This document shows, in pieces, positions 21,210 to 25,432 of a stretch of 33,467 bases of DNA. This stretch comes from Actinomycetota bacterium (lineage in GTDB: Bacteria; Actinomycetota; Actinomycetes; Nanopelagicales; Nanopelagicaceae), in assembly GCA_947451045.1 (NCBI GenBank), contig CANFXM010000014.1:1-33467 (forward strand), in the 5' to 3' direction. The stretch's first letter is position 1. Each line of letters starts with the position of its first letter. Under the pieces are notes generated by a model. The model did not search any database. It saw nothing but the letters and a program-made list of their open reading frames with translations, and had not been told where the DNA came from. The position numbers and the translations under genes are program-made.

Positions 21210-21248
21210 GATGTAAGGGTGATACACATTGTGAGAAAAAGGAAGGCA

Positions 21249-21272
21249 CACTCACCCTGTTAGGGGTGAGTG
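21249..21272. promoter_or_regulatory. Palindromic site between the MalT-type and TetR genes
   Basis: CACTCACCC (21249-21257) and GGGTGAGTG (21264-21272) are perfect inverted copies around TGTTAG. The site is 38 bases upstream of the tetR start and 39 bases upstream of the MalT-type start at 21209. TetR dimers usually bind palindromes of this size next to their own gene, so autoregulation and control of the divergent regulator are likely. A further GGGTGA occurs at 21217-21222. Confidence 0.6.
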
Positions 21273-21310
21273 CTCAGGGCGAATTCAGGTTGGTGTGCGA
21301 GGATACACAA

Positions 21311-21886
21311 ATGCCGAAATTGATAGAAGGAAACCTCGAGGAGAATCGGCGTTCGCGCTATTCCAGTCTCTTGGAGGCCGCTGTCTCTATTGCCTTAGAA
21401 AGTGGAAGTTCTGCGATCACGATTACTGCCGTTGCTAAACGTGCTGGAATTTCACGGGCTGGTGCATACGAATATTTTGCTTCGAAAGAAGAACTCATTG
21501 CAGATCTAATTATTGATGAAATTCAAATTTGGAGTAGTTCCCTCTCCAATCAAGTTGAATTAGCGCAAACTCCGCAAGCGAAAGTAATGGCGTGGGTTCA
21601 AGGTTCACTCGATTACATTCTCAGCGGAAAACATAAATTAGCTCGTGAACTGAGTTCTATTACAGTTCCCACCGAACGAATTAATGAAGTAAGAGAAGCA
21701 CATTATTTATTGATGCAGCCATTGGTCGAAGCGCTAGCGCAATGTTCTGTTAGTGATCCTATGCGCACCTCTATGTATATCAATGGACTTCTCGATGTTG
21801 CAACCCGGCGTATTGATTCTGGAAAAAATAATGAGGGCGAAAGCGATTATGTAATCGCCCTCGCCCTCCAACTTATTAAGGAATAA
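21311..21886 (+). CDS. TetR-family transcriptional regulator
   Basis: A 191-residue protein of normal TetR length. The N-terminal helix-turn-helix is clear: AITITAVAKRAGISRAGAYE followed by YFASKEELIADLI (about residues 37-70). The C-terminal two thirds should form the ligand-binding and dimer domain; its ligand is not predictable. The ATG at 21311 has GAGG (21299-21302) eight bases upstream and is preferred over the in-frame GTG at 21266, which would lie inside the palindrome. Its 3' end overlaps the convergent secreted-protein gene by 11 bases and contains a hairpin that looks like that gene's terminator. Control of the nearby haem genes is possible but not shown. Confidence 0.92.
   Translation: MPKLIEGNLEENRRSRYSSLLEAAVSIALESGSSAITITAVAKRAGISRAGAYEYFASKEELIADLIIDEIQIWSSSLSNQVELAQTPQAKVMAWVQGSLDYILSGKHKLARELSSITVPTERINEVREAHYLLMQPLVEALAQCSVSDPMRTSMYINGLLDVATRRIDSGKNNEGESDYVIALALQLIKE
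21835..21866 (-). terminator. Hairpin inside tetR, likely terminator of the convergent gene
   Basis: GGGCGA (21835-21840), two bases, GCGATTA (21843-21849), TG, TAATCGC (21852-21858), two bases, TCGCCC (21861-21866) form a symmetric stem with 13 Watson-Crick pairs and one symmetric internal mismatch. On the minus strand it is followed after four bases by TATTTTTT, giving the U-tract of an intrinsic terminator. It lies 10 bases beyond the stop of the minus-strand secreted-protein gene and within the tetR coding sequence. On the plus strand there is no T-run. Confidence 0.7.
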
Positions 21887-22754
21887 CTATAAAAGGCAGC
21901 AACTTCTCTGCACTCTTATAAGTCGCAGAAGCAGCGGTTGCAATTTTTACAGTACATACTGTTCCATCGACTGCGGTAAGAAGATAATTACTACCCGAAA
22001 CTACGACGTTGCAATCTCCTTTTGTATTGCTGGCATCAATAGTGACCACAGGCATAACTCCGGAACTTGAAATAACAGAGAAAGTAAGGGGCTTTGCAAT
22101 TGAAAGCATCGGTGGTTGCCCACCAGTCTTCAACTCAACTCCATCAATAGTTTTTGCTGTGATAACTGAATCCGCAAGCACTGTTGCAGTAGTTGCTTTT
22201 GGTTCTGGTGCATATGCAGCGACTGCTGGCCCTGTCTTTGCAAATGTCACAGGAAAAGCAATATCGGCACTACGGTCTTCGGAGCGAAGGTGGTCGGCGC
22301 GCGTATAGATTGCGCATTTAGTAACTCGACAATCAACATTTCCGATCATTGCAGCTACACGCAATTTCACGGTGAAAGAACCATCTGCTGCAATAGGTTT
22401 TGCAACACCAATTCCATATGAAGGAGGGTTAGTCGATAGCCATATGGATGCACCTGTTGCACCAGTCATATCGGCGCCACCACCACATGGTGAAGGTTTT
22501 ACTCCTGCTTTAACTTTGACACACAATGCAACATAAATTCCTGCTTTGGTACTAAAACCTTTTCCGGAGACTGCGATATCTGCTCCGTTAGGATTGAGAA
22601 GAATGCTCTTGGAAACGCTCAGCGAAGTTCCATTCTTTCCCGTCGCAACTCGATTTGAAGCTGCGTTAGAGGGAATTGCAGTCCCGATTACTAGGGCAAA
22701 TGCAACAATCGTTAATGTGGAAATTTTCATCATGTGTGAGTTTATGTTTTTCAT
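21876..22754 (-). CDS. Secreted neocarzinostatin-like protein next to haem uptake genes
   Basis: A 292-residue protein. The signal peptide MMKISTLTIVAFALVIGTA ends IPSNA before ASNRVA. Residues about 40-170 resemble the Ig-like fold of the neocarzinostatin family: LSVSKSILLNPNGADIAVSG, GIYVALCVKVK, CRVTKCAIYTRADH and SEDRSADIAFPVTF, with paired Cys. A second beta-rich region follows with DCNVVVSGSNYLL and GTVCTVKIATAASATYKSAE. Proteins of this shape often bind small hydrophobic ligands. Being divergent from hmuT across a shared repeat region, it may capture haem at the surface, but that is inference. Start ATG 22754 has TATCTT six bases upstream; internal ATGs at residues 8 and 9 are alternatives. 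Confidence 0.65.
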   Translation of the reverse strand: MKNINSHMMKISTLTIVAFALVIGTAIPSNAASNRVATGKNGTSLSVSKSILLNPNGADIAVSGKGFSTKAGIYVALCVKVKAGVKPSPCGGGADMTGATGASIWLSTNPPSYGIGVAKPIAADGSFTVKLRVAAMIGNVDCRVTKCAIYTRADHLRSEDRSADIAFPVTFAKTGPAVAAYAPEPKATTATVLADSVITAKTIDGVELKTGGQPPMLSIAKPLTFSVISSSGVMPVVTIDASNTKGDCNVVVSGSNYLLTAVDGTVCTVKIATAASATYKSAEKLLPFIVIP

Positions 22755-22760
22755 AGGATG

Positions 22761-22766
22761 AAGATA
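22761..22766 (-). promoter_or_regulatory. Leaderless-type -10 of the neocarzinostatin-like gene
   Basis: On the minus strand TATCTT is followed by CATCCT and ATG 22754. No Shine-Dalgarno is present. This supports the first ATG over the two internal ones. Confidence 0.5.
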
Positions 22767-22791
22767 GGCCTTGAATCAAAAATAGCGATTT

Positions 22792-22832
22792 ACACAGCGT
22801 CGGTAAATATTCGCCGACACAGCGTCGGTAAA
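22792..22832. promoter_or_regulatory. Two 16-bp perfect direct repeats between the haem locus genes
   Basis: ACACAGCGTCGGTAAA occurs at 22792-22807 and again at 22817-22832, start to start 25 bases. The copies carry partial dyads: TTTAC...GTAAA around the first (22790-22807) and CCGAC-ACAGC-GTCGG in the second (22814-22828). They lie between the divergent secreted-protein gene (22754) and hmuT (22873), which suggests a cooperative regulator site responding to iron or haem. The sequence does not match the DtxR/IdeR or Fur consensus as I know them. Confidence 0.8.
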
Positions 22833-22872
22833 CTTTGGATTTATCTGATGGTTTTACTGAGAAGATTCGTAG

Positions 22873-23793
22873 GTGAAATTCAAAAGGACGAAAGTGGTAA
22901 TTCTATTTTCTAGTCTTTTACTTTATGCATTTCCTTGCGCACAAGCCGCACAGGTAATAACGATTAGTCAAAATCAAATTCCAGTTCCAATTTTTGGATC
23001 TCCATCTAAATCTGCAAAAATTCCAACTCGCATAGTCTCTCTTGCAAATGGTGCAGCTGAAGTTCTTGTGTCACTAGGTTTGAAGACTCATTTAGTTGGG
23101 CGAGATATTGCAAGTTCATTCACTGGTGATACTAATATCCCTATCGTTACACAAGCACATGCACTTTCAGCAGAAAAGGTTTTAGCAGTACATCCAACTC
23201 TTGTACTTATTAACCCGAGTACCGGTCCAACAGCTGCTCTTAAGCAAATAAGTGCTGCTGGAATAAAAATTGCCGTCATCCCAGAGGCATATTCGCTAAC
23301 GGGGATGAGAACAAAATATCTATCTATCCTCAAAGCTATCTCACTCAACGTAGAAGATCCGGTTGCGCTAAAACTCTTAGGTTCAATTCCAGTAATTTCA
23401 CACGCTGTTACCGGGCAAACTGGAATTGCGTTTTTATATTTGCGCGGGACTTCTGGAATTTATCTCCTAGGTGGAAAAGGTTCCGGTGCAGATGCTCTCA
23501 TTCAGATTGCCGGTGGTATCGATGTCGGAGCAACAAAGGATTCAAACCCATTTATGCCTTTGACGCCCGAGGCATTAGTTTCAATCAATCCGTCAATATT
23601 GTTGGTAATGCAGAAAGGGCTCGAATCAGTCGGAGGATCAAAAGGACTCTTTGCTTTAGCTGGAGTTGCCCAAACTCCCGCAGGAATCAATCAGAAAGTA
23701 ATAGCCGTCGATGATTCTTTACTTCTCGCATTTGGCCCACGTACACAGGGCTTGATTTCTAAACTCACTGACGCGATTGGGTCATTGAAGTGA
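22873..23793 (+). CDS. hmuT: Haemin ABC transporter substrate-binding protein
   Basis: A 306-residue class III binding protein. Signal peptide VVILFSSLLLYAFPCAQAAQ; the Cys is not in a good lipobox, so lipid attachment is uncertain. Strong HmuT features: RIVSLANGAAEVLVSLGLKT at the start, GIYLLGGKGSGADALIQIAG, PLTPEALVSINPSILLVMQ, KGLESVGG, and VAQTPAGINQKVIAVDDSLL followed by AFGPRT. HmuT takes haem from surface proteins and delivers it to HmuUV, and the released iron is used by the cell. The start is a GTG with GAGAAG 8 bases upstream. Its stop overlaps the GTG start of hmuU by four bases. It is first in an hmuTUV operon. Confidence 0.93.
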   Translation: MKFKRTKVVILFSSLLLYAFPCAQAAQVITISQNQIPVPIFGSPSKSAKIPTRIVSLANGAAEVLVSLGLKTHLVGRDIASSFTGDTNIPIVTQAHALSAEKVLAVHPTLVLINPSTGPTAALKQISAAGIKIAVIPEAYSLTGMRTKYLSILKAISLNVEDPVALKLLGSIPVISHAVTGQTGIAFLYLRGTSGIYLLGGKGSGADALIQIAGGIDVGATKDSNPFMPLTPEALVSINPSILLVMQKGLESVGGSKGLFALAGVAQTPAGINQKVIAVDDSLLLAFGPRTQGLISKLTDAIGSLK

Positions 23794-24764
23794 AAAAAAG
23801 AATCATTTTTCCAACTTTAATTCTTATCGTAATCCTTCTTTTTTCACTTACTCAAGGGGCGGTACCGATAAGTCTGAATTCACTTTTTCATATTCTGATT
23901 CATAAAGATGCAAGTTCTAATTCATTAGTGCTCTGGGATATTCGCTTTCCAAGAATTATCTTGGCAATTCTTGTAGGAGCATCATTGAGCGTTGCTGGTG
24001 GATTACTCCAAACCATTTTTCGAAATCCTTTAGCAGATCCTTCAATAATGGGAATTTCTACAGGTACTTCGCTGGGAACAGTTATTGCCCTTTTACTTGG
24101 GGTCGAATTCGGAACTTCGCTATCGGTGGCCTTTGGGGTATTAGGCGGCTCAATAGCAATTGCTCTGATTTTTATTTATGCTCATTCTAGAAAAAGTAGT
24201 CACGCAGCTTTTCTTCTCTTTGGAGTTGCCCTCAACTCTTTGCTTGCAGCTTTGCTTGGAATCATTCTTTCTGCGACGAAGAATCCGCAAGCTCGTTCAA
24301 TTTCATTTTGGGCGCAAGGAACACTTTCACTTGCTACTTGGAGTGCGCTTGTATCCATCCTTCCTTTCTTCATCATTGGACTTTTGATTGCCCTATATCA
24401 ATCAAAGTATTCAAATGTGCTTACTCTCAGCGATATAGAAATTCGAACTTTAGGTATCAATCCATTTACCCTGCGCATAATTCTCTCCATCGCTGCTGCA
24501 ATTCTTGTTGCATCGGCAACCTCAATCGTTGGAATAATTGCCTTTGTCGGATTGATTACTCCCTTTGCACTCAGACTTATCTACGGGCCAGACCTTAGAT
24601 TCTTGATACCACTTTCAGCGCTCTGGGGTTCAGTACTTCTTTTGCTCTCCGATACATTGGCAAGAACTCTTATACATAATTTAGAGATTCCAATTTCAAT
24701 GCTAGTTGCACTAATCGGTGCACCGATTTTTATGTGGATTCTTGTTCGGAAAGTAAAGATATGA
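23790..24764 (+). CDS. hmuU: Haemin ABC transporter permease (FecCD family)
   Basis: A 324-residue FecCD-type permease with about nine or ten spans. Typical segments are WDIRFPRIILAILVGASLSV followed by AGGLLQTIFRNPLADPSIMG, the NPQARSISFWAQGTLS loop, and SATSIVGIIAFVGLITPFAL followed by RLIYGPDLRFLIPLSAL, the part that contacts the ATPase. It forms the inner-membrane channel for haem with HmuV. The start is a GTG overlapping the hmuT stop (GTGA), and its end overlaps the hmuV start (ATGA), so the three proteins are probably translationally coupled. Haem rather than siderophore or cobalamin as substrate follows from the adjacent HmuT. Confidence 0.93.
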   Translation: MKKRIIFPTLILIVILLFSLTQGAVPISLNSLFHILIHKDASSNSLVLWDIRFPRIILAILVGASLSVAGGLLQTIFRNPLADPSIMGISTGTSLGTVIALLLGVEFGTSLSVAFGVLGGSIAIALIFIYAHSRKSSHAAFLLFGVALNSLLAALLGIILSATKNPQARSISFWAQGTLSLATWSALVSILPFFIIGLLIALYQSKYSNVLTLSDIEIRTLGINPFTLRIILSIAAAILVASATSIVGIIAFVGLITPFALRLIYGPDLRFLIPLSALWGSVLLLLSDTLARTLIHNLEIPISMLVALIGAPIFMWILVRKVKI

Positions 24765-25432
24765 AAACACAACTATCCCTTGAAAATGGTTACATCAGCC
24801 GAGGCTCAGAGATGCTCCTTGAAGACCTTTCTATATCTATCACCCCTTCGTCGGCCCTGTTAATCACCGGCCCTAATGGAGTTGGTAAATCATCACTTCT
24901 CTTGTCCTTAATTGGAGAACTTCCACTGTCGCGAGGCGAACTTTCTTACTCGCAAATAAATATCAAGGAACTTTCGCTCAAAGAGAGAGCGCGCTTTCGC
25001 TCTTACTTACCACCTACTATCGATTCAGCATTTCCATATTCGGTGGCAGATTTCATTAATTTTGGTTCTATTCCGCTCAAGATGAGATTGAATAAAAGTG
25101 AAGTAAGAAACGAATTGAATCGCTGGATCTCTTATTTTGAGTTAGAAGAATTTTCCACAACTAAAATAAATGAACTATCTACCGGACAGCAGCAACGAGT
25201 GCTACTCGCTCGACTATTTCTTCACAATGCCGAGGTAGCGATTTTAGATGAACCTACTTCGGCCTTAGATAGTTACTTCACATCACTTGTTGTTGATGCA
25301 GTAAATACAAAGATGTCAGAAGGTCACTCTTTCATTATTGCTAGCCATGACTTCGAATTAGCTCAAAGGATCAATGGGCGAATTCTTGAACTCACTAGAG
25401 GGAAGCAAAAGCCTCTTCTAGAACGCTCATAG
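24761..25432 (+). CDS. hmuV: Haemin ABC transporter ATPase
   Basis: A 223-residue ABC ATPase, short for the family. Walker A GPNGVGKSS (residues 37-45), Q-loop region YLPPTID (the usual Gln is not obvious), signature LSTGQQQR, Walker B VAILDEPTS, and the switch His in IIASHDFELAQ. It energises HmuU. The ATG at 24761 overlaps the hmuU stop; a frame extension to 24734 lies inside hmuU and is not used. The last 38 bases overlap the end of the convergent gabT gene, so the two coding sequences share their C-terminal codons on opposite strands. Confidence 0.92.
   Translation: MKTQLSLENGYISRGSEMLLEDLSISITPSSALLITGPNGVGKSSLLLSLIGELPLSRGELSYSQINIKELSLKERARFRSYLPPTIDSAFPYSVADFINFGSIPLKMRLNKSEVRNELNRWISYFELEEFSTTKINELSTGQQQRVLLARLFLHNAEVAILDEPTSALDSYFTSLVVDAVNTKMSEGHSFIIASHDFELAQRINGRILELTRGKQKPLLERS

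Follow-up and report, generated by a model that had tools for sequence, protein, structure and literature searches.

A direct repeat upstream of hmuT as part of a probable tandem TetR-family operator for haem import in Nanopelagicaceae

The window, by which we mean the whole 33,467-nucleotide stretch of DNA analysed, carries a haem import locus in which a 118-bp intergenic region (22755-22872) separates the importer gene hmuT from a divergent gene for a secreted protein, with a gene for a TetR-family regulator next to the latter. The features of the locus are as follows.

21311 to 21886, plus strand: TetR-family regulator gene, the proposed operator binder, with invariant His108 and His131
21876 to 22754, minus strand: divergent secreted protein gene; in relatives, members of its family are encoded together with hmuTUV
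22789 to 22807, no strand assigned: predicted operator site 1, TTTACACAGCGTCGGTAAA; 15-bp core at 22789-22803 with a degenerate left half; holds repeat copy 1 (22792-22807)
22814 to 22832, no strand assigned: predicted operator site 2, CCGACACAGCGTCGGTAAA; 15-bp core at 22814-22828; holds repeat copy 2 (22817-22832)
22873 to 23793, plus strand: hmuT, haem-binding protein of the importer, with haem-site residues His96, Tyr189 and Arg191
23790 to 24764, plus strand: hmuU, FecCD-type permease
24734 to 25432, plus strand: hmuV, ABC ATPase, whose best NCBIfam match is a haem ABC transporter ATPase

The neighbours named in the original prediction, an HmuT-like binding protein and a divergent secreted protein gene, are indeed those of the repeat. 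His96, Tyr189 and Arg191 of HmuT correspond to His141, Tyr240 and Arg242 in the haem site of Corynebacterium glutamicum HmuT; across the family, Tyr and Arg are conserved in 58 of 58 proteins and His in 51, with Met in the remaining 7. Because these haem-site residues are kept, haem is a well-supported substrate of HmuT. The divergent secreted protein displayed weak similarity, and to neocarzinostatin-like proteins only. Its gene is convergent with the TetR gene, whose start we took as 21311 on the basis of the conserved N-terminus (the ORF list has 21266). An inverted repeat, CACTCACCCtgttaGGGGTGAGTG, lies at 21247-21275 between a MalT/LuxR-like gene and the TetR gene; it differs from the hmuT operator and is possibly a control site of one or other of these two genes.

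Two identical 16-bp copies with a 25-bp period had been predicted at 22792-22832, and exact copies of ACACAGCGTCGGTAAA were found at 22792-22807 and 22817-22832. Tandem repeats at the left edge of the window aside, no other 16-mer recurs perfectly as a direct repeat within 100 bp, and a repeat length above 12 was not reached in any of 20,000 shuffles of the intergenic region. The left edge itself (1-192) encodes a Lys/Ala-rich protein tail with 39-bp tandem repeats (KRRKKAAAKKAAP), cut by the contig end, and the tail resembles histone-like nucleoid proteins. Genome-wide, the sole other match to ACACAGCGTCGGTAAA was a near-match with 2 mismatches on contig C38, within a kynureninase-like CDS; we regard this single match as due to chance and discarded the idea of further targets for the 16-mer.

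The functional unit exceeds the 16-mer, extending over 22789-22807 and 22814-22832. Underlying each copy of ACACAGCGTCGGTAAA is a 15-bp palindrome, CCGACAnnnTGTCGG: the copy comprises its right-hand portion and a TAAA, which lies directly 3' of both sites. The core of site 2, CCGACACAGCGTCGG (22814-22828), has 1 mismatch relative to the perfect palindrome, and none of 2,000 shuffles of the intergenic region came as close to it. The core of site 1, TTTACACAGCGTCGG (22789-22803), keeps the right half, while its left half is degenerate, and the centres of the two sites are 25 bp apart. The partial dyads originally described within each copy (GTAAA/TTTAC and CCGAC/GTCGG) are real, but each copy shows a different one, copy 1 having TTTAC-N9-GTAAA and copy 2 CCGAC-N5-GTCGG. 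A scan of the intergenic region for sigma-70 consensus promoters gave no match. We also dismissed a role for the repeat region as a single-strand hairpin, its stability being no greater than that of shuffles.

In haem-making actinobacteria, homologous importer genes have a DtxR/IdeR iron box, TTAGGTTAGGCTAACCTAA, at the same promoter position, where the window has CCGACA/TGTCGG palindromes instead. Among hmuTUV loci with no TetR nearby, six (L301, L303, L304, L305, L307 and L311) carry DtxR/IdeR-like boxes with 1-4 mismatches around hmuT or its upstream genes; L306, L308 and L310 have no good box, and the box of L312, with 3 mismatches, is further away. These homologous loci are what would favour reading the repeat as a diverged DtxR/IdeR or Fur box. 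However, the best match to TTAGGTTAGGCTAACCTAA in the intergenic region had 10 mismatches of 19, as in shuffles, and no iron box with fewer than 6 mismatches was found anywhere in the window. Fur and Zur boxes, according to their consensus, likewise matched the intergenic region no better than they matched shuffles (best 8/19 and 6/15 mismatches, respectively). A diverged iron box is thus a most improbable reading. The original statement that the repeat matches neither DtxR/IdeR nor Fur boxes was borne out, no such match rising above chance in the intergenic region, whereas the palindrome matches strongly.

Across 151 genomes of the window's family, hmuT was found in 60, the TetR gene in 72 and both in 59 (Fisher p 7e-28), and where both occur the TetR gene is in most cases on the strand of hmuT, at a distance of 1-1.8 kb. 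Named relatives belong to Candidatus Nanopelagicaceae and include Planktophila and the strains IMCC25003 and IMCC26077; a search of viral contigs for relatives found none. A dyad, CCGACA-N13-TGTCGG, was present with at most 1 mismatch in 43 of the 59 family hmuT upstream regions, with a sharp spacer peak at 13, and with at most 2 mismatches in 44 of 59, compared with 0.26 in shuffles. Six family genomes, including that of the window, have tandem CGACA-N3-TGTCG palindromes in place of the N13 dyad. Among 76 loci in named contigs, 61 were of the N13 type, 6 of the N3 type (five family loci and the outgroup locus L158) and 3 of an N14 type, and their dyads sit mostly upstream of hmuT. The extended N13 motif is approximately TTAT-CCGACA-N13-TGTCGG-n-AAAA (73 distinct sites); an A-rich flank is enriched beside the half-site in relatives too. 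As expected of a TetR-type operator, the element forms a short inverted repeat in the promoter that it would control: relatives have either 15-bp palindromes or the N13 dyad upstream of hmuT.

The spacer is 14 rather than 13 in L017 and L021 (G079 and G097), the two genomes in which the TetR gene is ~300 kb from hmuT. In L033, L101 and L116 (G095, G137 and G108), a second perfect CCGACA-N13-TGTCGG dyad lies 104-106 bp downstream, inside the start of hmuT; at ~ten helical turns from the first, it could permit looping.

An exact search for the N13 dyad in the 151 genomes found sites mostly at hmuT; exact dyads elsewhere occurred at G024:C101:6624, G047:C8:34237, G014:C92:2209 and G054:C18:48646. 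We also searched six genomes for palindrome targets away from hmuT and discarded those candidates, as the part of the matches that we inspected lay in CDSs or by unrelated genes (for example, a site beside a prfA-like gene in L067/L071).

Hmu loci from other families were collected by a class-wide search, in a sample dominated by one family. The TetR gene occupies the same place in eight outgroup genomes and in the named contig L158, and all nine have N3-type palindromes: in eight these are paired in tandem, their centres separated by 21-23 bp, and in G555 there is a single one. Tandem palindromes are present in the outgroup family f34, and the 15-mer of the window's site 2 recurs identically, at the same place, in the outgroup genome G397. 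A distant homologue of the TetR occurs in two Streptomyces-like genomes, but not beside hmuT. When relatives were searched for the repeat, then, the palindrome proved to be kept at the same position in most of them, so that the element is not missing from relatives with the same locus; the exact 16-mer repeat, in contrast, is specific to this genome. The latter would be expected if the repeat were a functionless product of chance or recent duplication, but conservation of the palindrome across families of strongly different GC content, the 15-mer identity in G397 included, makes that explanation barely credible.

In a tree of TetR proteins that included the outgroups, the tandem operator was shared by the outgroup and the family clade to which the window belongs, and the N13 operator was confined to a single clade (support 99/98). 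Because of this distribution, the tandem operator is probably ancestral and the single N13 dyad derived. The agreement between tree and operator is partly a matter of co-inheritance, because the regulator gene and the operator mostly lie close together, and co-inheritance of a compact locus could account for it even if the TetR did not bind directly.

This consideration bears on whether another regulator binds the palindromes, the TetR being a mere neighbour inherited with the locus. Linkage alone could yield the co-occurrence of TetR and hmuT; a few loci with both genes lack a clear dyad at hmuT (G011, G015, G120, G006, G021, G086 and G052); and a LuxR/MalT-like regulator gene is also nearby in the window. 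However, that LuxR-type gene is not in the locus of relatives, and palindromes of this kind are usual TetR targets. In addition, G487 and G501 have the TetR gene on another contig beside other genes and nevertheless retain both it and the operator, as weaker tandem sites at hmuT. We therefore consider binding by another regulator improbable, and the TetR protein encoded at 21311-21886, on which the original prediction was silent, is likely the regulator.

The TetR protein has an N-terminal TetR helix-turn-helix domain (PF00440, E 3.4e-10, 40 bits against a cut-off of 24) and an AlphaFold model with the all-helical two-domain TetR fold (pLDDT 89.7). The best matches of this model in the PDB were TetR-family proteins, with Z up to 17.7 among the matches listed. 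His108 and His131 are invariant in 61 TetR proteins and are placed in helices 6 and 7 of the confident model; we would guess that they could bind haem, at positions away from the ligands of HrtR. No autoregulation site was apparent, as the CCGACA/TGTCGG dyad occurred in 0 of 61 TetR upstream regions.

The TetR haem sensors HrtR, FhtR and HatR control efflux. The operator of HrtR from Lactococcus lactis is ATGACACAGTGTCAT, and its core, GACACAGTGTC, is one position off GACACAGCGTC of the window; a search of open-licence papers for the letters of the HrtR operator found nothing relevant. HrtR shares the TetR fold, and its operator is also a 15-nt palindrome (PMC12839281), but it regulates haem efflux and its own gene, whereas the window's operator is at haem import and the TetR promoters have no such site. 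Its haem ligands are His72 and His149, and the invariant His residues of the window's TetR are in other helices. HrtR was not seen among the listed sequence and fold matches. FhtR of Enterococcus faecalis is similar in being encoded beside a haem transporter operon, in not being autoregulated and in binding two promoter palindromes (PMC7858072). It differs in controlling the efflux pump HrtBA through 14-nt palindromes, with Tyr132 as haem ligand and a measured haem response. Thus, where HrtR and FhtR control a haem efflux pump, the operator described here is at an hmuTUV importer with conserved haem residues. In Corynebacterium, haem-related loci likewise respond to haem and iron, through a two-component system, HrrSA, together with DtxR and not through a TetR repressor (PMC12327846).

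Loss of haem synthesis accompanies the operator. In the window's own genome (95.8% complete), hemE and ferrochelatase were not found. None of the 11 tested genomes with the operator (that of the window and ten from the outgroup) had hemE, and each of the 13 operator-free genomes tested had it (p 4e-7, kinship ignored). Within family f34, hemE and iron-box-like sites occur together in G327, which lacks the TetR, and nine relatives show the opposite. In the window's family, the eight genomes with hemE were all without hmuT (p 0.02). In G034, a haem-making genome without hmuT, a TetR paralogue (L084:428-1036) lies beside hemE, hemY, hemQ, hemH, hemA and hemC-like genes, which were named from reading their sequences; for hemE and hemH, a model gave the name as well. 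In fresh water, acI actinobacteria such as Planktophila are abundant. Haem auxotrophy has been reported for Planktophila (PMC12381374). The link between the operator and haem auxotrophy is a further addition to the original prediction.

These data bear on what the TetR senses. Among the matches listed, the solved proteins nearest to it in sequence and fold include the fatty-acid regulators FadR and FasR, so that the same operator might answer to a signal other than haem, such as a fatty acyl-CoA, a different porphyrin, a product of haem breakdown or iron status conveyed in some other way. We consider this possible but doubtful: in the scanned genomes the operator is nearly confined to the haem locus, it is tied to loss of hemE, and the paralogue in G034 adjoins hem genes.

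Very probably, then, the repeat belongs to a tandem TetR operator, two sites with the consensus CCGACAnnnTGTCGG and often a TAAA flank, that controls hmuTUV and the divergent gene, with haem most likely as effector. We infer TetR binding, repression and the haem ligand from what was computed: the operator, its conservation, the TetR link, the haem residues of HmuT and the loss of haem synthesis. The TetR would most likely bind as two dimers, as suggested by two palindromes ~two turns apart, and would repress hmuTUV as well as the divergent gene for the secreted protein of the haem locus. Binding of a regulator as two units had been proposed, and the findings support it: the window has two palindromes, and the element recurs at this position in relatives. 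With haem as corepressor, the haem-loaded TetR would shut import when haem is plentiful, an option that fits because uptake concerns an essential but toxic cofactor; alternatively, haem would act as inducer, as in HrtR. The suggestion that the repeat marks an undescribed haem regulator site gains support from the palindrome conserved at a haem locus that has no iron-box match.

TetR haem regulators reviewed so far concern efflux only (PMC11442138), and in open-licence papers we found no earlier description of haem import control in acI actinobacteria or of a TetR for it. A TetR in charge of haem uptake, standing in for an iron box, would depart from the TetR haem regulators described earlier, which act on efflux. 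We give even chances to a history in which, on loss of haem synthesis, control of import passed from DtxR/IdeR to a dedicated haem-sensing TetR, the operator later changing in one family from the tandem form to a single wide dyad with the same half-sites. A likely regulator and an exact operator can now be named for haem import in these freshwater actinobacteria. If this history is true, haem is regulated in them for its own sake, as an essential cofactor rather than a source of iron. The result also suggests a candidate general rule by which loss of haem synthesis accompanies a swap of iron control for haem control of the importer.
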